A DNA stretch of 64,000 bases. Source: Anaerococcus porci (GTDB taxonomy: Bacteria > Bacillota > Clostridia > Tissierellales > Peptoniphilaceae). The translations under genes and the position numbers were made by a program. The stretch's first letter is position 1. Every line of letters starts with the position of its first letter. Under the pieces are notes generated by a model. The model did no database searches and had not been told where the DNA came from. It saw nothing but the letters and a program-made list of their open reading frames with translations. Below, piece after piece: positions 13,468 to 63,946 of this stretch. The stretch is taken from contig NZ_VULQ01000002.1 in the NCBI RefSeq assembly GCF_009696575.1, positions 1 to 64,000 of the forward strand, given 5' to 3'.

Positions 13468-14238
13468 TCATGAATGAATATCCATCTTTTTAAAATACCA
13501 TATATTTATACAATATAAAATAATAGAGGAAATAATCGATACTATAATCATTTGTACTGATTGATCATAAGCAATCTCTCCTCTTATAAAGAAAGCTGGT
13601 AGTTTATACATGTAATTTGTTACAAAGAAAATTTTTAGCTTTTCTGGTATTGTTAAACTTAATATATAATATGCTGCCCCGATTCCAAAAACTGCATTTG
13701 AATTTCTTAAAAAAAATGCAAGAAACATAAGCAACTGTGTTAAAGTTAGAGCTGGTAATATGGCTGTTAGTGTACCAAGAAAAATAACAGCAAAACCATA
13801 CATGCCTTCTAATTGTTTGCCCCTTATATATAGCAATTCTCCATTAAACATTATTTCACTACCAGTTTTTAAAAAGATTTCTCCAATCAAGTAGGCTGAA
13901 ATTATATTAAATAATATAATTGTAATAATCCCTACTGTTGCTATTAAAAACTTAGATAAGAAAACTTTTGAACGCTCACCCCCAATGATTATAGGTAATT
14001 TTAAGGTTCCTTTCTGGTAATCGGAAGCAATAAGATAGGATGAAATATAGACTACAAATAAAATTACAAATAGCAAGGCTTCAGGAATTGCCATCAAAGC
14101 AAAAGATGGCGGATTAATTGATACCATACCCATCTGAAACACTTTTATAATGTGAGATACTAGTATTGTCAAAAAGAAAAGCCATATATATTTATTTTTT
14201 ATTATTTTATACAATTCATTTCCTAGATATCTGCTCAT
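13468..14238 (-). CDS. ABC-2-type permease of immunity transporter (LanG-like)
   Basis: A 256-residue protein with six predicted membrane segments, the first after YLGNELYKIIKNKYIW and the second preceded by SSYLIASDYQKGTLKLP, a motif of the ABC-2 family. Together with the next permease and the ATPase it resembles the LanFEG/BcrAB exporters that expel bacteriocins or bacitracin-like peptides from the membrane. It lies 14 bases downstream of the other permease gene. Confidence 0.8.
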   Translation of the reverse strand: MSRYLGNELYKIIKNKYIWLFFLTILVSHIIKVFQMGMVSINPPSFALMAIPEALLFVILFVVYISSYLIASDYQKGTLKLPIIIGGERSKVFLSKFLIATVGIITIILFNIISAYLIGEIFLKTGSEIMFNGELLYIRGKQLEGMYGFAVIFLGTLTAILPALTLTQLLMFLAFFLRNSNAVFGIGAAYYILSLTIPEKLKIFFVTNYMYKLPAFFIRGEIAYDQSVQMIIVSIISSIILYCINIWYFKKMDIHS

Positions 14239-14252
14239 TTTCCTTCACCTAC

Positions 14253-14978
14253 CTAATATAAAATATCTTTGTTTTTAAATAATACTGTTCCAAACAAAAA
14301 GGAAAATACTCCTATCAGCAGCGATAGTACGATAATTGGAAGTATGTCCCTGTATCCAATCACTTGGAGTGAGGTTAACTTTTGACCTATCTGTGTATTA
14401 AAGAAAAACACACAAAGAAAAATCATCGTTATATTCACCGATATTGAGCTCTTTATAAATAGACCAAGTAGCATAGTCACTGAACCATAGGCAAAAATAG
14501 GCATAAGTAGTTTCGAATAATTTACAAGAGTATATAAAAAATCATCTAGACTACTTGAACCCCTACGGTAAAAATCAATTTGCCAGGTATTATTTAAATA
14601 AATCACCCCTATAAGGTAACAAGTAAGCAAAAAGAAGAAGGTGCTAAACAAAATTACTAATAAAAAACTTAATAATTTTGACAGTAAATGCTTATACCTA
14701 ACAGGTTCATTCATTATGTTTAATTTCAAAGTTCCCCCTAGCAAATCTTCTGTCACTATCTGGGATATAATAATTGGCACAAAAAAAATTAAAAGTTGAG
14801 TATATATGTCTAACATATCACTAGGAAAAGTTAATATGCTAGCAAGTTCCCATGAAGAATCTTTTGGATTATAGACAGATGCATTAATCCATATAAGGGC
14901 TATTTGGGACAATAAAAATATAACTATAACTTTTGTTTTTTTTATTTTTAAATATTCATTGTAAATCAAATTAAGCAT
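14253..14978 (-). CDS. ABC-2-type permease of immunity transporter (LanE-like)
   Basis: A 241-residue integral membrane protein: NLIYNEYLKIKKTKVIVIFL opens helix 1, and IVTEDLLGGTLKLN precedes helix 3, the same ABC-2 arrangement as in the neighbouring permease. The gene overlaps the ATPase gene by eight bases. The two dissimilar permeases plus one ATPase are the usual composition of lantibiotic immunity transporters. Confidence 0.8.
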   Translation of the reverse strand: MLNLIYNEYLKIKKTKVIVIFLLSQIALIWINASVYNPKDSSWELASILTFPSDMLDIYTQLLIFFVPIIISQIVTEDLLGGTLKLNIMNEPVRYKHLLSKLLSFLLVILFSTFFFLLTCYLIGVIYLNNTWQIDFYRRGSSSLDDFLYTLVNYSKLLMPIFAYGSVTMLLGLFIKSSISVNITMIFLCVFFFNTQIGQKLTSLQVIGYRDILPIIVLSLLIGVFSFLFGTVLFKNKDILY

Positions 14979-15702
14979 GATGGTAGCCTACTTTCTGAAA
15001 ATATAATTCTTTAAGATTTGCTACATTAGATTGAAAAAGGAGTTCTTTAAGCTCACCTTCTACACACAATTTTCCCTGATGTAAAATCCCTATACGATTG
15101 CATATCCCTTCCATCTCGTGAAGAAGATGGGAGGATATAAAAAAAGTCTTTTGAAAAGTCTTCGCAAGATAAATTATGAGTTCATTTATTTCTTCCATTC
15201 CATTTGGATCTAGACCATTTGTCGGTTCGTCAAGAATAATCAAATCTGGATTTCCAAGTAAGGTATTGGCTATTCCCAGTCTTTGCTTCATTCCCATAGA
15301 ATAATTAGAAAACTTATCTTTTTGTCTATCACTTAGATGAACGAGTTCAAGCACTTCTTGTATTTCTTTTTCCCCTACATTATCAATAAGATTTGCCATT
15401 AATTTCAAATTTTCATATCCTGATAGATTTTCATAAAATCTAGGAGCTTCGACCATGGCACCTAAATTTTTTAATGAAGTTTTCTTTTCATTAAAAACTG
15501 ACTTCCCGTTGATTAATATTTCACCTGAATCAGGGAAAACTAGACCCGTAATCATTCTGATTGTCGTCGTTTTTCCTTGACTATTCGCTCCAATAAATCC
15601 ATATATATCTCCTCGACTGACAGTTAAATCTAACTTATTAATAACCTTTCTTTTGGCGAAAGACTTATTTAAGTCATTTATTTTTAATATTTCATTTGTC
15701 AT
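14971..15702 (-). CDS. ABC transporter ATPase, lantibiotic-immunity/bacitracin-efflux type (LanF/BcrA-like)
   Basis: A 243-residue ATPase: Walker A GANSQGKTT, signature NYSMGMKQRLGIA, Walker B LIILDEPTNGLD and H-loop FFISSHLL. Where most ABC proteins have a Q-loop glutamine this one has glutamate (LGAMVEAPRFYENL), the E-loop known from lantibiotic immunity proteins such as NisF and NukF and seen in BcrA-like proteins. It is the first gene of the five-gene unit, preceded by AGGAGG. Resistance to a cell-envelope peptide is the best guess; no lantibiotic precursor gene is visible beside it. Confidence 0.85.
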   Translation of the reverse strand: MTNEILKINDLNKSFAKRKVINKLDLTVSRGDIYGFIGANSQGKTTTIRMITGLVFPDSGEILINGKSVFNEKKTSLKNLGAMVEAPRFYENLSGYENLKLMANLIDNVGEKEIQEVLELVHLSDRQKDKFSNYSMGMKQRLGIANTLLGNPDLIILDEPTNGLDPNGMEEINELIIYLAKTFQKTFFISSHLLHEMEGICNRIGILHQGKLCVEGELKELLFQSNVANLKELYFQKVGYHHA

Positions 15703-19488: not shown

Positions 19489-20118
19489 TTAATACTGCTT
19501 TTTTTCCATAATATTAATTGATGATTTTATGGAAACTCCAAGGACTACGAGGAATAAGATTATTATACTTAAGATGCTTATCTTAAATGAATAAAAGCTC
19601 AAAATATCTATTAAATTTGGTATAATATCTAATTTTCCTAATAAATTGGATATAGCAAATATTATCAAGAATGTTATCATAACAATAATTCTGCCTTTTT
19701 CCGCACCAAATTTAAGAATGAATGGTAACTGAATTGCAGGTAATAAATTTATTGAAACACCACTTAAAATTGATATTAGTATTATTTTATCTATACCAAT
19801 CTTATCCTCAATTAATAGAAGTATAAAAATAATAATTGAAGCTACTAAACTAAATGCAAATGAAAAGAATAATTTGCTAAAAACATAGGAGCTTTTTTTG
19901 ATTGGCATTGAGAAAGCAAATTGCTCAAATTTAGATTGTACATCATAGCCAAAAGCTATAGAATTTAGAATTAATGGCATAAAAACACACATCAATGGAA
20001 TCATAATTAAAGTTTTACTGTATATGGAGTAAACACTTAGTGCAATACATAATATAAATGATAATAAAAGTGTCCTCTTCAAAGTTGCTATGTCTTTTAT
20101 AATTAAAGCAATTATCAT
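19489..20118 (-). CDS. ABC-2 transporter permease
   Basis: A 209-residue membrane protein with about six helices. FGYDVQSKFEQFAFSMPIKK between helices 2 and 3 is the typical loop of the ABC2_membrane_5 family (PF13346). It overlaps the ATPase gene by four bases, so the two form one transporter. Transporters of this type next to a GntR regulator (YtrA/YhcF group) react to cell-wall antibiotics in other Firmicutes; substrate unknown here. Confidence 0.8.
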   Translation of the reverse strand: MIIALIIKDIATLKRTLLLSFILCIALSVYSIYSKTLIMIPLMCVFMPLILNSIAFGYDVQSKFEQFAFSMPIKKSSYVFSKLFFSFAFSLVASIIIFILLLIEDKIGIDKIILISILSGVSINLLPAIQLPFILKFGAEKGRIIVMITFLIIFAISNLLGKLDIIPNLIDILSFYSFKISILSIIILFLVVLGVSIKSSINIMEKKQY

Positions 20119-20963
20119 TTAATTTCTCCTTTCACAAAATATACCATTATATCTTCTATTGATGGCTTCTGTAGTGTTATTCCATTTGGAACAAGATCTC
20201 TTTTAACTAATAGTTGTTGACCAAAAGAGTGCACTCTTTTTCCTATAATTGCTTTATCGTCAATATTTTCTACTTCCTTATCTGATAAGTTACAAAGTGC
20301 ATAGTTCTCTTCTAATTGATCCTTTGTTTCAAAAAATAGAACTTTACCTTCATCTATGAAGGCAATATAATCGGCAATTTTTTCTAAATCTGATAAAATA
20401 TGTGATGATATTAATATTGTGTGATTTTCATCTTGCATATAGTCTAATAGTAAATCTAATATTTCTTCTCTGACAATAGGATCCAATCCACTTGTTGGTT
20501 CATCTAATATAAGAATTTCAGCATTATGTGATAAAGCTATTGCTATTGAAAGTTTCATCCTCATTCCTCGAGAATAATTTTTTATAATTTTTTTCGATGG
20601 CAAATTGAACTTGTCTTTTAACTTGTTGAAAAAATCCCTATCCCATTTTGAATAAACTCTAGAACAGAATCTTTCAACATCTAATAAAGTCATCTCATCT
20701 GGAATTAACAAATCATCAAATACCACACCTAGATTGTCTTTTATTTTAATACTGTTATAATCTTGGCTATCAAATATTTTAATGATTCCTGCATCTTTGT
20801 TTAATAATCCCAATAATAATTTTATGGTTGTACTTTTCCCAGCACCATTCTGACCGATATATCCAACTATTGTTCCTTTAGGAATAGAAATATTTATTGG
20901 TCCTAATTTAAAATCGTCAAATTCTTTTACTAAATTACAAATTTCAATTGCGTTATTACTCAT
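20115..20963 (-). CDS. ABC transporter ATPase of GntR-linked module
   Basis: About 282 residues: Walker A GQNGAGKST, Q-loop region NLGVVFDDLLIPDEMTLLD (Q replaced, as in several YtrB-like proteins), signature NYSRGMRMKLSIA, Walker B ILILDEPTSGLD and H-loop LISSHILSDL. The start is placed at MSNNAIEICN (20963), preceded by GAGGAGGGTGAAT, rather than 20978. It overlaps the regulator gene by eight bases. Confidence 0.88.
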   Translation of the reverse strand: MSNNAIEICNLVKEFDDFKLGPINISIPKGTIVGYIGQNGAGKSTTIKLLLGLLNKDAGIIKIFDSQDYNSIKIKDNLGVVFDDLLIPDEMTLLDVERFCSRVYSKWDRDFFNKLKDKFNLPSKKIIKNYSRGMRMKLSIAIALSHNAEILILDEPTSGLDPIVREEILDLLLDYMQDENHTILISSHILSDLEKIADYIAFIDEGKVLFFETKDQLEENYALCNLSDKEVENIDDKAIIGKRVHSFGQQLLVKRDLVPNGITLQKPSIEDIMVYFVKGEIK

Positions 20964-21336
20964 ATTCACCCTCCTCATAACTTTTTAACATGTTTATCAG
21001 TTCGTCAATTGATATATCTGCGATTTCTGACAGTTCAACTGATTTTTGTAACATTGATTCAATTTCCTTTAAGTATTCTTCGCGTATAAGTTCTTTATTT
21101 TGTGGAGCAACAAAATTCCCCTTGCCTTGAACTGAATTAATGAAACCATCCATTTCCAATTCATCAAAAGCTCTTTTAGCTGTTACCATACTTATTCTTA
21201 ATTCTTTTGCTAAAAACCTTATCGAAGGTAGCTGTTCTCCAACTACTAACTGTCCAGAAATTATTTGTGCTTTAATTTGATTTTTTATTTGTAAATATAT
21301 AGGATCATCACAAGAATTATTTATTTGTATATCCAT
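20956..21336 (-). CDS. GntR-family regulator, YtrA/YhcF type
   Basis: A 126-residue repressor: winged helix at residues 12-80 (PIYLQIKNQIKAQIISGQL, LPSIRFLAKELRISMVTAKR, SVQGKGNFV) and a short helical C-terminal part for dimerisation. The small size without a large effector domain is characteristic of the YtrA subgroup, which controls ABC exporter operons. It is the first gene of the operon and has a consensus promoter bracketed by inverted repeats directly upstream. Confidence 0.88.
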   Translation of the reverse strand: MDIQINNSCDDPIYLQIKNQIKAQIISGQLVVGEQLPSIRFLAKELRISMVTAKRAFDELEMDGFINSVQGKGNFVAPQNKELIREEYLKEIESMLQKSVELSEIADISIDELINMLKSYEEGEYE

Positions 21337-22077: not shown

Positions 22078-23523
22078 TTATTTTACTTTAGTGTTACATT
22101 TAATTTCACAATCTTTCAAATATATAATATTGAAATTTTTGTATTCATTCCTATATTTAGTATCAGTGAATAGAAATGTTTTGCCAGTATTTTCAAATTC
22201 TTCAAATATTAATGATCTAATAGCAAAATCTATAGAAAATAAATTATTGTCGATTAAAATCACATCTTTACCTGAAATCAGAGTTCTGGCTATAGCAATC
22301 CTATCTATTTGTCCTCCTGATAATTCATCATTAATTAATTTTTTCCTATCTTTCAAGTCATTTAATGAAAAAATATCTACAATTTCTCTATACCTATTAG
22401 GCTTACTGTCAGTAACTATATTCTCATATAAATCTTCACTTAATACTGATGATTTTTTAAGAACCAAACAATATTCTCTATTACTTGCAAGCTCTTTTAA
22501 AATTCTGCTCTTACCAGATCCATTCTCTCCAATTAGTACATTTACTTTACCCAAACTTATACTATTTAGTATCTTATCAACATTAAAACTAGATTTATCT
22601 TTGCATAAATTTAAGTTCAGCTTATCATTAAAGGAATCTAAACTCACTTTCAAATCATTGTTTATAACTACAAATGTCGATACATATGTCGATAAGTCAT
22701 TTATGATAAAACTATAGCTTATCAATAAAGCAAGGTCCCCTACAGAAAAGTTTCTAAAATATATCACTGCTAATAGTATAGCTATTAAATTCAAATCTAC
22801 TAAACATTGGTTGATAGTGTTTATCATAATATTGAAATAGCTATACTTAAACTTATCACTCTTATTTTTCTTTAAATGTTGATTATAGATATCAAAATAT
22901 TTATTCTCAAGAGACTCAATCCTTATTTTTCTGCCTTCACCTATGGCGTCTTGGTATATCTTTATAAGGTTGGTTTCATTATTTCTGATAGCCACGCTTT
23001 TCTCATAAAGCTTATCTTTCAGAATATTTAAAATGAAAAATATAAGTATGGGAACTACTAGTATAACAATAGCTACATAAATATTTATTGAGGCAATTAT
23101 TATAAATGCTATTATAGAAGCAAATACATTGCACACGGTATCTATTCCATATGATATGTAGGATACTATTGAGTTAACATCATTTTGAATGATATCTATA
23201 AATATTTGGTTATTAGAATCCGACACTTTTCTAGATTCAAGACACTTGCTAATAATTCTCTCATACATAACATTGGCCCACTTATGTTGAGCCTTAATAT
23301 CTATATCTGCTCCCAATTTTATAAGTGGAAATCTCAACAAAAAGATAATAGTATATAAAAATACAATGATTAACAGATTATTATTTTGATTTAAATCAAA
23401 ATAAAGTTTTATTAGATATGATAATACCAAGGGAATATTATGTGCTAAAAGCCAAATTAGCAAGTCTAGTACAAAGTATTTAGGATATTCTTTAATTATA
23501 GTTTTTACATTAAATTTTACCAA
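22078..23523 (-). CDS. ABC exporter half-transporter with degenerate ATP site (subunit B)
   Basis: About 481 residues: exporter-type membrane domain (six helices to about residue 290) fused to an ATPase domain. Walker A GENGSGKSR and signature LSGGQIDRIAIA are good, but the Walker B end reads VILIDNNLFS, with Asn where the catalytic Glu belongs, and the H-loop histidine is missing (TFLFTDTKYR). Such subunits work in heterodimers with one dead and one live ATP site. TTG at 23523 has GAGGTG seven bases upstream. It overlaps the partner gene, which has exactly the complementary features. It probably exports a peptide from the small locus upstream. Confidence 0.8.
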   Translation of the reverse strand: MVKFNVKTIIKEYPKYFVLDLLIWLLAHNIPLVLSYLIKLYFDLNQNNNLLIIVFLYTIIFLLRFPLIKLGADIDIKAQHKWANVMYERIISKCLESRKVSDSNNQIFIDIIQNDVNSIVSYISYGIDTVCNVFASIIAFIIIASINIYVAIVILVVPILIFFILNILKDKLYEKSVAIRNNETNLIKIYQDAIGEGRKIRIESLENKYFDIYNQHLKKNKSDKFKYSYFNIMINTINQCLVDLNLIAILLAVIYFRNFSVGDLALLISYSFIINDLSTYVSTFVVINNDLKVSLDSFNDKLNLNLCKDKSSFNVDKILNSISLGKVNVLIGENGSGKSRILKELASNREYCLVLKKSSVLSEDLYENIVTDSKPNRYREIVDIFSLNDLKDRKKLINDELSGGQIDRIAIARTLISGKDVILIDNNLFSIDFAIRSLIFEEFENTGKTFLFTDTKYRNEYKNFNIIYLKDCEIKCNTKVK

Positions 23524-25051
23524 AATCAATCACCTCATCTACCTTAGCAATAATTCTCTCTTCATGACTGATAATAACTATTATCTTATCCATATTATCA
23601 ACAAGTTTAAAGAAAGTATCACATTTACCTTCATCAATCCCCAAAAACGTTTCATCCATTATTATGATATCTTTATTTGAATTTAAAGCCTTTAACAGAT
23701 ACAAACTCCTATATTCACCATTAGATAATTCATCCAATGGAGTAGCAAAATCTTTATTTGGAAGAAAACTATTAAGAATTTTTTTTGATTCTTGATTTTC
23801 ACTAATCACATCAGCAATGATAGCTTCATTAGATAATTCAATTTTTTGATCTATGTATTCTATCTTTTCGCTGATATACCCTTTCTTAAGCATCCTTATG
23901 TCCATATCATTATATTTTATACTGCCATCAATTGGATCAAATAGCCTAACCATCAAGTTAATCAGTGTTGACTTTCCCGATCCAGAAGCTCCTCTTATAA
24001 GATATTTTTTCTTTCGAAAAGTGTAATTAAAATCTTTGAGAATTTCATTCTCAGAGTAGGCAAAACTTACATTAGTAAACTCAATTTTGGATACTTTTTC
24101 ACTCAAAACATAATTTCCATATTCTAGTTTTCTGGAATTCAAATCTAAAAAATCAAATATTCTTTCTTTGACAACACCTATATTGGGTAGGGTCTCTAAC
24201 TGCAATCGTATTTCCATAATTGGATCTTCTATTAAATCAATATAATATATAAACAGATACAAACTTCCCAAAGTTACTAGTCCATTTTCGATTAAAAATA
24301 TTCCTGATATCATCACAATTATCTTCATGGATGAAAATACAAAAATAGAACTAATCCAATACTCATAAGAAATAAAGTTTGATATAACTTCGTAATTGAA
24401 AAATTTCAGTATTGATTTTCTTAACCTATTTATTAAATAAGTATCTTTGTCTATGTATATAAATTCCTCTAATAAAGTAAAAGTCTCAGAGAATAAACTT
24501 ATCATTCTATCATAAGCAACCTTGGTGTTTTTATCCTTGCTTTTAGATTTTTTCTTAATTTTATTTAATAAGATTAAAAAAACTATAATCATCACAATAA
24601 ATAAAGATGAAAAATAAGATAACTTATTTACTGATACAATAAAGATGCCAGAAAGAATTAAAATATTTTTAAATATTATCGACAAGAAGTTTATATAAAA
24701 ATCTATTAAAGAATCTACATCCTTATTTAAATTAATCAGTTTTCCTTCATCTTCTCTAATTATATTTAGATAAGAACTATCAAGCAACTTAGACATCAAA
24801 GTTTTTTTGAGATCATACTCTAATGAATAATTTAGATAATTTTCCAATAACATATCAAAAATATTAAAAATTCCCTTAGCTATAATTAGTAATACAATCA
24901 CTAAAAAAACATTTTTCAATCTGTAGATATTTGAAATATTATCTATAAATTTAGATATGTAAATAGGATAAAAAACCATTATCAAAGAAATTAAAATAAG
25001 CAAAATTCCATGAATAACAATAATAAATTTTTTTCGTAAATTAATTTTCAT
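23510..25051 (-). CDS. ABC exporter half-transporter with competent Walker B (subunit A)
   Basis: A 513-residue exporter-type half-transporter: N-terminal membrane domain (about 1-300) and ATPase. Walker A GASGSGKST, Q-loop IEYIDQKIEL, Walker B IIIMDETFLG with catalytic Glu and H-loop VIISHEERI are intact. The signature is LSNGEYRSL instead of LSGGQ. In a head-to-tail dimer its Walker motifs would face the LSGGQ of the partner (live site), and its weak signature would face the partner's defective Walker B. No peptidase C39 domain is present, so any leader must be removed by another enzyme. ATG follows AAGGGGAATTT. Confidence 0.82.
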   Translation of the reverse strand: MKINLRKKFIIVIHGILLILISLIMVFYPIYISKFIDNISNIYRLKNVFLVIVLLIIAKGIFNIFDMLLENYLNYSLEYDLKKTLMSKLLDSSYLNIIREDEGKLINLNKDVDSLIDFYINFLSIIFKNILILSGIFIVSVNKLSYFSSLFIVMIIVFLILLNKIKKKSKSKDKNTKVAYDRMISLFSETFTLLEEFIYIDKDTYLINRLRKSILKFFNYEVISNFISYEYWISSIFVFSSMKIIVMISGIFLIENGLVTLGSLYLFIYYIDLIEDPIMEIRLQLETLPNIGVVKERIFDFLDLNSRKLEYGNYVLSEKVSKIEFTNVSFAYSENEILKDFNYTFRKKKYLIRGASGSGKSTLINLMVRLFDPIDGSIKYNDMDIRMLKKGYISEKIEYIDQKIELSNEAIIADVISENQESKKILNSFLPNKDFATPLDELSNGEYRSLYLLKALNSNKDIIIMDETFLGIDEGKCDTFFKLVDNMDKIIVIISHEERIIAKVDEVIDFGKI

Positions 25052-25070
25052 AAATTCCCCTTAAAATAAT

Positions 25071-25212
25071 GAGCTGCTGCAAAACTATGACTGTCTTGTA
25101 TCATCACAAGAAATACCATATAAAAATTTCACTCTCTCTGCTAGCTTATTGAAATTTTCTATATGAAGTCTTTTTATTGAAAATCAACAATTTATTGATT
25201 ATGCAACAGCCC
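25071..25212. repeat. MITE-like palindromic repeat, copy A
   Basis: 142 bp bounded by GAGCTGCTGCAAAACTA on the left and, reversed, GGGCTGTTGCATAATCA on the right. It contains an inner hairpin (AAAATTTCA against TGAAATTTT). The size, ends and hairpin design match the copy at 63664-63812. It has no coding capacity, so it is a miniature non-autonomous element. It lies between the micro-ORF stop and the ABC start. Confidence 0.55.
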
Positions 25213-25222
25213 TTGTGTTTTC

Positions 25223-25291
25223 CTATGCTTTCTTAATTATTCTAATTTTCACAACATTTTTTGTAGAAATACTACCTTTGCATTTAGACAT
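25223..25291 (-). CDS. 22-residue cationic micro-peptide, candidate exported or modified peptide
   Basis: ATG 25291 is preceded by TAAGGAGGTGAATTT, a full-length Shine-Dalgarno match seven bases away and the strongest ribosome site in this locus. The peptide begins MSKCKGSIST, has one Cys at position 4, seven Lys/Arg residues, and ends VVKIRIIKKA before TAG at 25223-25225. It lies between a YkgJ-like gene and two ABC half-transporters, all on the same strand. I do not recognise a family. It could be a bacteriocin or signal peptide, a modified peptide precursor, or a leader peptide regulating the transporter genes. Confidence 0.5.
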   Translation of the reverse strand: MSKCKGSISTKNVVKIRIIKKA

Positions 25292-25337
25292 AAATTCACC
25301 TCCTTAAATTTATTTATAAATAATATATATATATTAT

Positions 25338-25895
25338 TTATATTTCTTTAATTATTTTGACTTCTTCATCACTATAAATATAGTGGACTACTTCTTTCGT
25401 GTTGATAAATACACTTGTTATTTCGTTATATATTTGACTTGGAATTTCTTCAAGATAGTCAATAAATTTATCTATAATATCTTCTACTTTAAAATTAGAT
25501 ACTAAGTAATCATAATACGAACATTTTTTACTTAATGCCCAATAAATTTTTCCATCCAAATAATTGACTATCATAAATGGAAAGAGCATACAAAATAATG
25601 GTTTGTTTTTTTGAATTCTACATTCTCCTTTTTAATCTCGCAACTTACATGTTGGGGACTGATGCATTAAATCAATGTTTCCACTTTCATCATTATCAAA
25701 TGTATTTAATAAATTTATATTATCATTCAAACAAACAATTTCCGCCCCTATATCCAATAATTCATCTACTTCACTTTCAATAATGTGTATAACTCCTTTA
25801 CAATCACTATATTCGCATTCTATACATGATGAATGTATATTAGAAAATAAATCTTTGTTTAATCTATCTTTAATTAATCTAATATTATTTTTCAT
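25338..25895 (-). pseudogene. YkgJ-like (CxBC) zinc/iron-chelating cysteine cluster protein, interrupted by in-frame TAA
   Basis: Start ATG 25895 follows AAGGA. The frame encodes SSCIECEYSDCKG and, near codon 85, SPTCKLRD, then TAA at 25632-25634. The same frame goes on with KGECRIQKNKPLFCMLFPF, IYWALSKKCSYYDYL and an acidic C-terminus to 25338. The joined 185 residues show the YkgJ-type layout (CxxC cluster, C-x-L-x-D, G-x-C-x-I, RP-like KPLFC, late C). Either this is a fresh nonsense mutation, or two pieces are made: 89 residues, and about 83 from ATG 25589 or more from an ATT behind GGAGAA. The metal-binding role is from the family. Confidence 0.6.
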
Positions 25896-25923
25896 ATTCA
25901 ATCCTTAGTTATAATATAGATAG

Positions 25924-27225
25924 AGTCCGTATAATTGTGTAAAAAGAAAAAGGTCATTTAAAACCCAAACTAGTACAATGTTTTTAACAAACCAAAACTA
26001 AACTAGGAGGAACAAATGACCCAATTACATTTTACATTAAACATAGAAGATATTCAAAACTTAATTAACTAAGAAGTTAAAAATGATATGGCAAGAACTA
26101 TTCTAAGTAAAATATTTAACGAGCTTATGGAAAAAGAAATAGATGAATATTTAGAAAATACAGCCTATCAAAGAGATCCTAACAGAATCACCTACCGTAA
26201 TGGATACTATGAACGTGACTATACAACCAAAATAGGAACATTAACTTTAAGAGTACCTAGGACAAGAGATGGTAAATTCTCAACAGAAGTATCTGAAAGA
26301 TATCAAAGAAATGAAAAAGCACTACTTTCAACCATGCTAGAAATGTATGTTCAAGGAGTATCAACAAGAAAAGTATCCAAGGTGATAGAAAATATATGTG
26401 GCAAAGCATATTCTAAATCCTTTGTATCATCTTTAACTAAAGAGCTTGACGAAGAAGTAAAGCTATGGAGAAATAGTGATTTAAGCAAACTAAAAATTCC
26501 GTATCTAATTGTAGATGTGGTCTACATAAAAGTAAGGGAAAACAATCGTGTAGTATCAAAAGCTTGTCATATTGCAATAGGAACAACTGAAAAAGGAAAT
26601 AGAGAAATCATAGGCTTAGACCTAAGTTCTAGTGAAAGTGAAAATTCATGGTCAAACTTCTTTGAATATTTAAAAGCTAGAGGACTATCTGGACTTAAAA
26701 TGGTAATATCAGATGCTCACAAAGCTCTAGTAAAAGCAATAAAAGAAACATTCGTAAATGTAATATGGCAAAGATGTCAGGTACATTTCTTAAGAAATAT
26801 CCTATCAAAAGCACCAAAGAAAAACACTGAAGACTTTAGAACAGACATCAAAGCCCTATTTAAAATCCAAGATATAAACTTAGCAAGAAAAATGAAAGAA
26901 GAAATCTTCTCAAAATATGAAACAGAAAAGAAATATCAAACCTCTTTAAACACCTTAGATGAAGGCTTTGAAGATGCTTTTTCCTATTTATCTAATGGAG
27001 TAATTCATAGTAGACTTAAATCAACCAATTGCTTAGAAAGACTAAACGAAGAAGTTAGAAGGAGAGAGAAAGTCGTTAGAATATTTCCAAATGAAGACTC
27101 AGCTATTAGACTAATAGGCGCAATCCTCATTGATATCAATGAGGATTGGATAACATCTTCTAAATTGTATATTAGAATGAAATAGTAAATATTGGACTAG
27201 GATAATTTACACAATATTATGGACT
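25924..27225 (+). mobile_element. IS256-family insertion sequence, copy 2
   Basis: About 1.3 kb with terminal inverted repeats: left AGTCCGTATAATTGTGTAAA, right (reversed) AGTCCATAATATTGTGTAAA. It carries one transposase gene. The copy at the window start shares its right end and TTGACTT flank, so the true end may lie five or six bases further out. It sits 28 bp upstream of the YkgJ-like start codon and must have replaced or altered that gene's promoter. No target repeat was seen. Confidence 0.8.
26016..27185 (+). pseudogene. IS256-family transposase with premature TAA near the N-terminus
   Basis: The native start is ATG 26016 behind AGGAGG. After MTQLHFTLNIEDIQNLIN comes TAA (26070-26072). 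The frame stays open from there: EVKNDMARTILSKIFNELME, YLIVDVVYIKVREN (first Asp), VISDAHKALVKA (second Asp), WQRCQVHFLRN and STNCLERLNEEVRRR (catalytic Glu). All catalytic residues are present in the 365-residue part from ATG 26088, but no ribosome site precedes it. Activity would need reinitiation. The stop replaces a residue that is normally Gln or similar, so one base change is enough. Confidence 0.75.
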
Positions 27226-63637: not shown

Positions 63638-63946
63638 TTAATATATTTTGTCTATAGTACGATGGACTATTGCAGAATAAATTAATCGTTCTAAAATTAT
63701 TACAAACTCCTCCACGACAATTTGGACTCTATAAGCCGACAGGCTATACTCAAATTGTCTAAAAGTAACTTGTAATGATTCAACTTTAGAATTCATAATT
63801 TTGCAACAGCCCATTTTATTAAAATATTTGACCAGTGCTGTAATGTTTTTTCTATTTATTGAATTAGTTCTTTCTCTTTCGATTGTATCAACGTATTTTT
63901 CAAATACTTCTGCATTAAAATATGTCTTATCAAATAATTTAGGCAT
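63638..63946 (-). pseudogene. Phage major capsid-like N-terminal fragment running into the repeat
   Basis: The start MPKLFDKTYFNAEVFEKYVD resembles the N-terminus of HK97-like major capsid proteins of Firmicutes phages. After about 28 residues the likeness stops, and the rest of the 102-codon frame is short unrelated sequence and then the reading of the MITE-like repeat, so the product is an accident. It has a ribosome site (AGGAGG) upstream, left over from the original gene. Confidence 0.45.
63664..63812. repeat. MITE-like palindromic repeat, copy B
   Basis: 149 bp bounded by GGACTATTGCAGAATAA and, reversed, GGGCTGTTGCAAAATTA. An internal hairpin is formed by GACAATTTG...ATAAGCC and GGCTATACTCAAATTGTC. 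The same ends, size and inner-hairpin plan are found at 25071-25212, although the interior sequences differ. It is inserted in a phage capsid-like gene fragment. Confidence 0.6.

Follow-up and report, generated by a model that had tools for sequence, protein, structure and literature searches.

A cassette of 3.8 kb on the minus strand of a 64,000-nucleotide (nt) stretch of the Anaerococcus porci genome (contig NZ_VULQ01000002.1, positions 1 to 64,000, here called the window) contains a 22-codon open reading frame (ORF) directly upstream of two genes for ATP-binding cassette (ABC) half-exporters. Judged from sequence, this micro-ORF looks like a conserved coding gene that was overlooked by the family models tried. 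The explanation we favour, with rather less than even confidence, is a horizontally moving peptide-plus-exporter cassette. The evidence does not yet choose between an exported peptide and a leader peptide, and the position of the micro-ORF suits both. The cassette is an uncharacterised variant of known parts.

Organization of the cassette

The genes run on the minus strand in the order cysteine-rich ORF, micro-ORF, palindromic element, ABC-A and ABC-B, as follows.

25338..25901, minus strand: cysteine-rich ORF, weakly YkgJ/PF03692-like, with an intact homologue in A. tetradius
25296..25305, minus strand: full-length Shine-Dalgarno sequence of the micro-ORF, AAGGAGGTGA, the only copy of this 10-mer in the 64-kb window
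25223..25291, minus strand: 22-codon micro-ORF, MSKCKGSISTKNVVKIRIIKKA, with an identical peptide in A. tetradius and a frame-broken homologue in genome G020
25071..25212, minus strand: palindromic element of 142 nt, read as MITE-like (miniature inverted-repeat transposable element), terminus GGGCTGTTGCA, with a hairpin fold and a second element sharing the terminus
23510..25051, minus strand: ABC-A half-exporter, PF00664 + PF00005, Walker B IIIMDE, signature LSNGE
22078..23529, minus strand: ABC-B half-exporter, signature LSGGQ, degenerate Walker B ILIDNN
22114..25880, minus strand: extent of the cassette common to the window and A. tetradius, 91% nt identity

A cysteine-rich ORF broken by one TAA, a 22-codon ORF with a full ribosome-binding site and two overlapping half-exporter genes were all found at the places given by the original prediction for this locus. 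Its description of a strongly basic peptide with one Cys near the N-terminus also held, the peptide having 6 Lys, 1 Arg, 1 Cys and no acidic residue. Taken as a whole, its observation was confirmed and its interpretation was supported in part. An IS256-family transposase gene (26088–27185, plus strand) lies directly upstream of, and divergent from, the cysteine-rich ORF. The window genome (2.2 Mb, 37 contigs) belongs to the same genus as A. tetradius.

Conservation of the micro-ORF

First-order Markov resampling of the window produced an ATG ORF of 12–40 codons lying 4–10 nt behind AAGGAGG in 22 of 60 runs, indicating that the ribosome-binding site and the ORF alone were not beyond chance. It is conservation that lifts the micro-ORF above this expectation. 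In A. tetradius the encoded peptide is identical, and the 2 of 69 nt that differ (97% identity, 67/69 nt) are both synonymous. G020 has a homologous stretch upstream of its ABC-A, in which the frame breaks near the fifth codon. Window and G020 were compared on either side of this break, the codon at the break being omitted, and the resulting 21 codon pairs comprised 6 with synonymous differences, 8 with non-synonymous differences and 7 that were unchanged. The 18 nt differences were distributed 4/3/11 over codon positions 1/2/3 (P = 0.014 for at least 11 of 18 at position 3), and MSKC and KIRIIK were retained. Judged by DNA similarity alone, the G020 stretch (E 2.1e-4) was no better than chance hits elsewhere, the best of which reached 1.8e-4; it was regarded as the micro-ORF homologue because it lies directly upstream of the orthologous ABC-A gene. 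The pattern of change was of the coding type, the A. tetradius differences being both synonymous and those of G020 biased towards the third position.

A DNA search with the micro-ORF region gave matches in all 31 genomes at E 10, mostly short and AT-rich, and by score A. tetradius alone stood out. When genomes of the family were searched at the protein level with the 22-mer (E 0.05), 2 of 130 contained the peptide in full. No family of NCBIfam, Pfam or PADLOC matched the 22-mer, and a degenerate pattern of its first codons gave no match among viral contigs. As regards precursors of bacteriocins or of ribosomally synthesised and post-translationally modified peptides (RiPP), a linked and conserved candidate peptide gene was found in two genomes, plus one broken copy.

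The ABC exporter pair

ABC-A (513 amino acids) and ABC-B (483 amino acids) were both identified as half-exporters containing a membrane domain (PF00664) and an ATPase (PF00005), and their ORFs overlap by 20 nt. By their motifs, ABC-A has a canonical Walker B (DE) and a non-standard signature (LSNGE), and ABC-B has a standard signature (LSGGQ) and a Walker B (DN) without the catalytic glutamate. The pair thus has the predicted features of a heterodimeric exporter with one canonical and one degenerate ATPase site; this is the one-good-site design of heterodimeric exporters. The best PDB profile match was 3qf4, which we take to be TM287/288, with TM_0288 named for chain B. No C39 peptidase was matched by Pfam at E 0.1 in ABC-A or ABC-B, and a single tree of 26 ABC proteins placed the two in separate clades, each splitting window, A. 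tetradius and G020 from G018, G019 and G089. The predicted heterodimer lacking a C39 peptidase was borne out by these results. The best NCBIfam match of ABC-A was a peptidase-containing ABC transporter (144 bits against a cut-off of 500), and the alignment began at profile position 152, past the peptidase part. Within its own genome, ABC-A after itself best matched an ABC gene in a radical S-adenosylmethionine (SAM) CXXX peptide cluster (30%). The ratio of non-synonymous to synonymous substitution rates (dN/dS) between window and A. tetradius was 0.146 for ABC-A and 0.149 for ABC-B.

Probable transfer and distribution of the cassette

The window from 25880 to 22114 aligned to A. tetradius at 91% nt identity over 3774 columns (90.7% over 3786 columns with alternative scoring). 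When 9.8 kb of the window was compared with 18 kb of A. tetradius, the flanks of the two cassettes gave no alignment, and the pyruvate kinase genes of the two genomes were 75% identical. Because the cassette was 91% identical, as against 75% for pyruvate kinase, and its flanks were unaligned, the four genes were probably moved together as a unit by recent horizontal transfer.

In A. tetradius the cassette lies between a gene for an XRE+TPR regulator and a 300-residue ABC ORF (L031:12651-13553). At the same chromosomal place genome G014 has a 531-residue ABC gene (L075:6938-8533) beside the regulator, so the insertion of the cassette may have cut the ABC gene in A. tetradius, as far as two ABC ORFs compared by place can tell. 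The regulator site is retained without the cassette in G007 and G014, and the window genome yielded nothing matching the A. tetradius regulator at E 1e-8. A relative of it in G020 lies ~2.4 kb from the ABC pair, past two other genes. In G019 an HTH-like (helix-turn-helix) fragment was seen by eye before the ABC pair, and tblastn did not match it to the regulator. A quorum-sensing link through this regulator, which is divergent from the A. tetradius cassette, was considered and dropped. PADLOC matches of ABC-A, ABC-B and the regulator looked like generic ATPase/HTH similarity and were set aside.

A search for related loci yielded 14, of which two were strong relatives (L014, 90%; L015, 56%) and the other 12 were 22–35% identical over parts. 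Relatives of ABC-A were detected in 5 of 31 genus genomes at E 1e-30 and in 6 of 249 order genomes at E 1e-40; the six are the window genome, A. tetradius (90%), G020 (56%) and G018, G019 and G089 (each 54%). ABC-B follows ABC-A in all six, and the pair as found in G019 and G089 was 53–54% identical. The class sample gave one genome of 391, the window's own, at E 1e-60 with three candidates scored per genome, and no plasmid matched ABC-A at E 1e-25. Among the six exporter genomes, the micro-ORF was seen solely in the branch of window, A. tetradius and G020; G018 is uninformative on this point, its contig ending 25 nt upstream of ABC-A.

A MITE-like element in the spacer

The 142-nt palindromic element between the micro-ORF and ABC-A, which the original prediction did not mention, starts 10 nt after the micro-ORF stop codon and ends 19 nt before ABC-A. 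It folds as one long hairpin (z -3.16, 25052–25217). A second palindrome of similar size in the window (63664–63812) also forms a full-length hairpin and has the same exact 11-nt terminus, and the opposite termini of the two (25071–25212 versus 63664–63812) differ at several bases. The A. tetradius copy of the element is 83% identical, and G020 gave no match. We read the element as a putative MITE-like insertion; no parent transposon was identified for it.

Both the window and the A. tetradius cassettes carry this insert, and the low dN/dS in these copies indicated that peptide and exporter stay conserved though the spacer is interrupted. That they were kept despite the insert argues against a finely tuned attenuator, while leaving room for regulation. 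No intrinsic-terminator-like site was found between 24900 and 26150, and a promoter scan was uninformative (17 found versus 11.8, standard deviation 3.8, in shuffles).

The cysteine-rich ORF

The cysteine-rich ORF likely starts at ATG 25895 behind AAGGAT (the alternative being TTG 25901), ends at 25338 and is interrupted by one in-frame TAA (25632–25634). Its A. tetradius homologue is uninterrupted (182 residues), the frame opening at a TTG without a visible ribosome-binding site, and has the cysteine layout C21-x2-C24-x4-C29 ... C52, C80, C89, C99, C122. The N-terminal CX2CX2CC of PF03692 is absent from this protein, which has CX2CX4C instead and no CC. Against PF03692 the homologue scored 17.9 bits (E 0.005), below the gathering cut-off of 23, in a weak match over residues 69–115 that includes C80, C89 and C99; the two window pieces of the ORF had no PF03692 match at E 0.1. 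The YkgJ-like label of the original prediction was not upheld by these scores, and membership of YkgJ/PF03692 is only weakly suggested.

Between window and A. tetradius, dN/dS of the two pieces of the gene was 0.25 and 0.27 (0.15 for the ABC genes), suggesting selection on it over much of the period after the two copies diverged. Relatives of the protein were found in 2 of 31 genus genomes (E 1e-3), 2 of 249 order genomes (E 1e-8) and, in the phylum sample, 1 of 398 (the window's own genome, E 1e-4). No match was obtained in G019, G089 or G020, nor among plasmids at E 1e-6. The original claim that the four genes form one system stands to the extent that all four are shared with A. tetradius at 91%, but the cysteine gene is broken in the window and occurs in so few genomes of the order.

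No convincing relative of the protein was found among solved structures (two matches, E 0.8–0.9, to another protein), and a single-sequence AlphaFold2 model of the A. tetradius protein (mean predicted local distance difference test score, pLDDT, 41.8) was unusable and was set aside. FliB methylates lysines of flagellin and holds a [4Fe-4S] cluster by CX4CX3CC, a motif compared in the same paper with the CX2CX2CC of PF03692 (PMC8598068). The likeness lies in a cysteine-rich motif and in the lysines on which FliB acts (PMC8598068), the micro-peptide being lysine-rich. Unlike FliB, the A. tetradius protein has CX2CX4C, no CC and 182 residues and scores below the PF03692 cut-off. FliB thus serves as a lead only, the nearest biochemical precedent found for a protein whose relation to it is undemonstrated. 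No literature joining YkgJ, radical SAM and peptide was found in open-licence PubMed Central.

Exported peptide or leader peptide: possible roles of the micro-ORF

In the explanation we favour, the cassette would make the 22-residue, strongly basic peptide, and the ABC pair, as a dedicated heterodimeric exporter, would export it or a product of it. With no C39 peptidase in the exporter and no leader to be recognised in the peptide, exit would take place without a cleaved leader, and the exported peptide may act as a bacteriocin-like or signalling peptide. Leaderless bacteriocins are short cationic peptides that have no leader and use an exporter without a C39 peptidase, and the cassette resembles them in all these respects; unlike them, the peptide has no family match and no immunity gene was recognised in the cassette. 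A product is favoured because conservation extends along much of the peptide and because peptide and exporter survived the MITE-like insertion. If the peptide was ever modified by the cysteine-rich protein, this might have been by, for example, FliB-like [4Fe-4S]-dependent lysine methylation; since the gene is broken, no modification is expected from the window copy. The fullest version, a minimal exported system in which a leaderless lysine-rich 22-mer is modified in intact copies by a FliB-like Fe-S protein and leaves by a dedicated exporter, all within a 3.8-kb cassette spreading between Anaerococcus species, seems to us the least probable of the readings given here.

Radical-SAM RiPP clusters of the same genus (L032, L077, L078 and L081) likewise have ABC exporters in peptide-modifying clusters, but the present cassette has no radical SAM enzyme, and their exporters match ABC-A at 24–30%.

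Several results weigh against an exported peptide carried by a mobile cassette. No leader or processing site was recognised in the micro-peptide and no immunity gene in the cassette, and exporter pairs exist without the peptide: G019 (417 nt) and G089 (~250 nt) have no micro-ORF in the sequence before ABC-A, so that the exporter there has another substrate or has lost the peptide gene. In G020 the frame of the micro-ORF is broken, and the conservation test comprised 2 + 18 differences in three sequences, one of them this broken copy. The tree of 26 ABC proteins did not settle whether ABC-A sides with peptide or with drug exporters, and the argument for transfer used one control gene, pyruvate kinase. 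The original prediction had named ABC pairs lacking a micro-ORF or YkgJ gene in related genomes as evidence against it, and this pattern was partly seen: G019 and G089 have neither, and G020 has a broken micro-ORF and no YkgJ match.

The chief rival, which we consider unlikely though the strongest of the alternatives, is that the micro-ORF encodes a regulatory leader peptide, whose translating ribosomes would sense a drug or the membrane state and set exporter expression by attenuation. Its place just before the genes of a heterodimeric ABC exporter, the very strong ribosome-binding site and the hairpin-forming stretch 10 nt past the stop codon all fit it, and G019 has, by eye, a 5-codon ORF (MLIKI) behind GGGAGGT in the same position before ABC-A. 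There is also a precedent: bmrB of B. subtilis, a 53-residue ORF directly upstream of bmrC, has to be translated for antibiotic-induced transcription of bmrCD (PMC4191407), and BmrB-BmrC-BmrD resembles the cassette in having a small ORF directly upstream of two ABC half-exporter genes. BmrB differs, however, in its length and in carrying a terminator and an anti-terminator inside its own coding region (PMC4191407), whereas the micro-ORF has 22 codons, no terminator-like site was found between 24900 and 26150, and the spacer hairpin is apparently a MITE-like insert, of a type that recurs in the window and is retained in A. tetradius, rather than a dedicated attenuator. The peptide has two Lys/Arg-X-Lys/Arg motifs (KCK and KIR), a kind of motif that is the main site of ribosome stalling by ketolides (PMC8298421), but shuffled peptides average 1.9 of them and 65% reach the observed 2, and stalling at these motifs was dropped as evidence after this control. 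Conservation also spans much of the peptide, beyond a single stall motif.

It is improbable, in our view, that there is no functional link at all, the locus being a decaying island of a multidrug-type exporter with the micro-ORF and the broken cysteine gene as passengers. The interrupted cysteine gene in the window, the TTG opening without a visible ribosome-binding site in A. tetradius, the broken G020 micro-ORF, the adjoining IS256 transposase gene and the MITE-like element inside the cassette agree with decay; a dN/dS near 0.15 in both ABC genes does not, nor does a micro-ORF that is 97% identical between window and A. tetradius beside an element that is 83% identical. More improbable still is a small protein that stays in the cell or at its membrane, where it regulates the exporter or joins it in a complex without being its cargo: co-occurrence and co-conservation with the ABC pair fit it equally, and binding to membrane or protein is conceivable for its basic C-terminal half, rich in Ile and Val (NVVKIRIIKKA), but the related ABC pairs of G019 and G089 have no micro-ORF.

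Should the peptide prove to be exported, it would be a very short cargo that carries no leader and travels on a mobile cassette of its own, and the orphan cysteine-cluster protein would gain a candidate substrate. Should it serve as a leader, the pair would join bmrBCD as another heterodimeric exporter under small-ORF control.

Other transporters and peptide clusters

Elsewhere in the window, 13468–15702 comprises an ABC ATPase gene and, after it, two membrane-protein ORFs. The ATPase came closest to transporters for lantibiotic protection (TIGR03740), at 222 bits against a cut-off of 310, and the two ORFs had no NCBIfam match. A GntR regulator and an ABC-2 transporter are encoded at 19489–21336; the regulator and ATPase resemble PmtR and PmtA of the phenol-soluble modulin (PSM) exporter genes, with scores below the cut-offs. 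The genome from which the window comes also contains a CXXX-repeat radical SAM peptide cluster (L032, G000:C8), in which TIGR04115, TIGR04119 and a PapB-type enzyme score above cut-off; in another cluster (L034, G000:C9) the radical SAM and YcaO-like proteins score below theirs.

XRE+TPR-type regulators 51–56% identical to that of A. tetradius were found in three other Anaerococcus loci (L077:5634-9921, L078:2966-7962 and L081:5311-10052). They are divergent from small ORFs that, partly by eye, appear pheromone-like, with a hydrophobic start and TI(Y/D)LC near the end. The three loci also contain radical SAM/SPASM enzymes and ABC exporters, and in L078 and L081 there is, in addition, a Glu-rich ORF that resembles a precursor and has SSCG..CGGT close to its end. 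The loci may represent peptide-signalled control of RiPP clusters.

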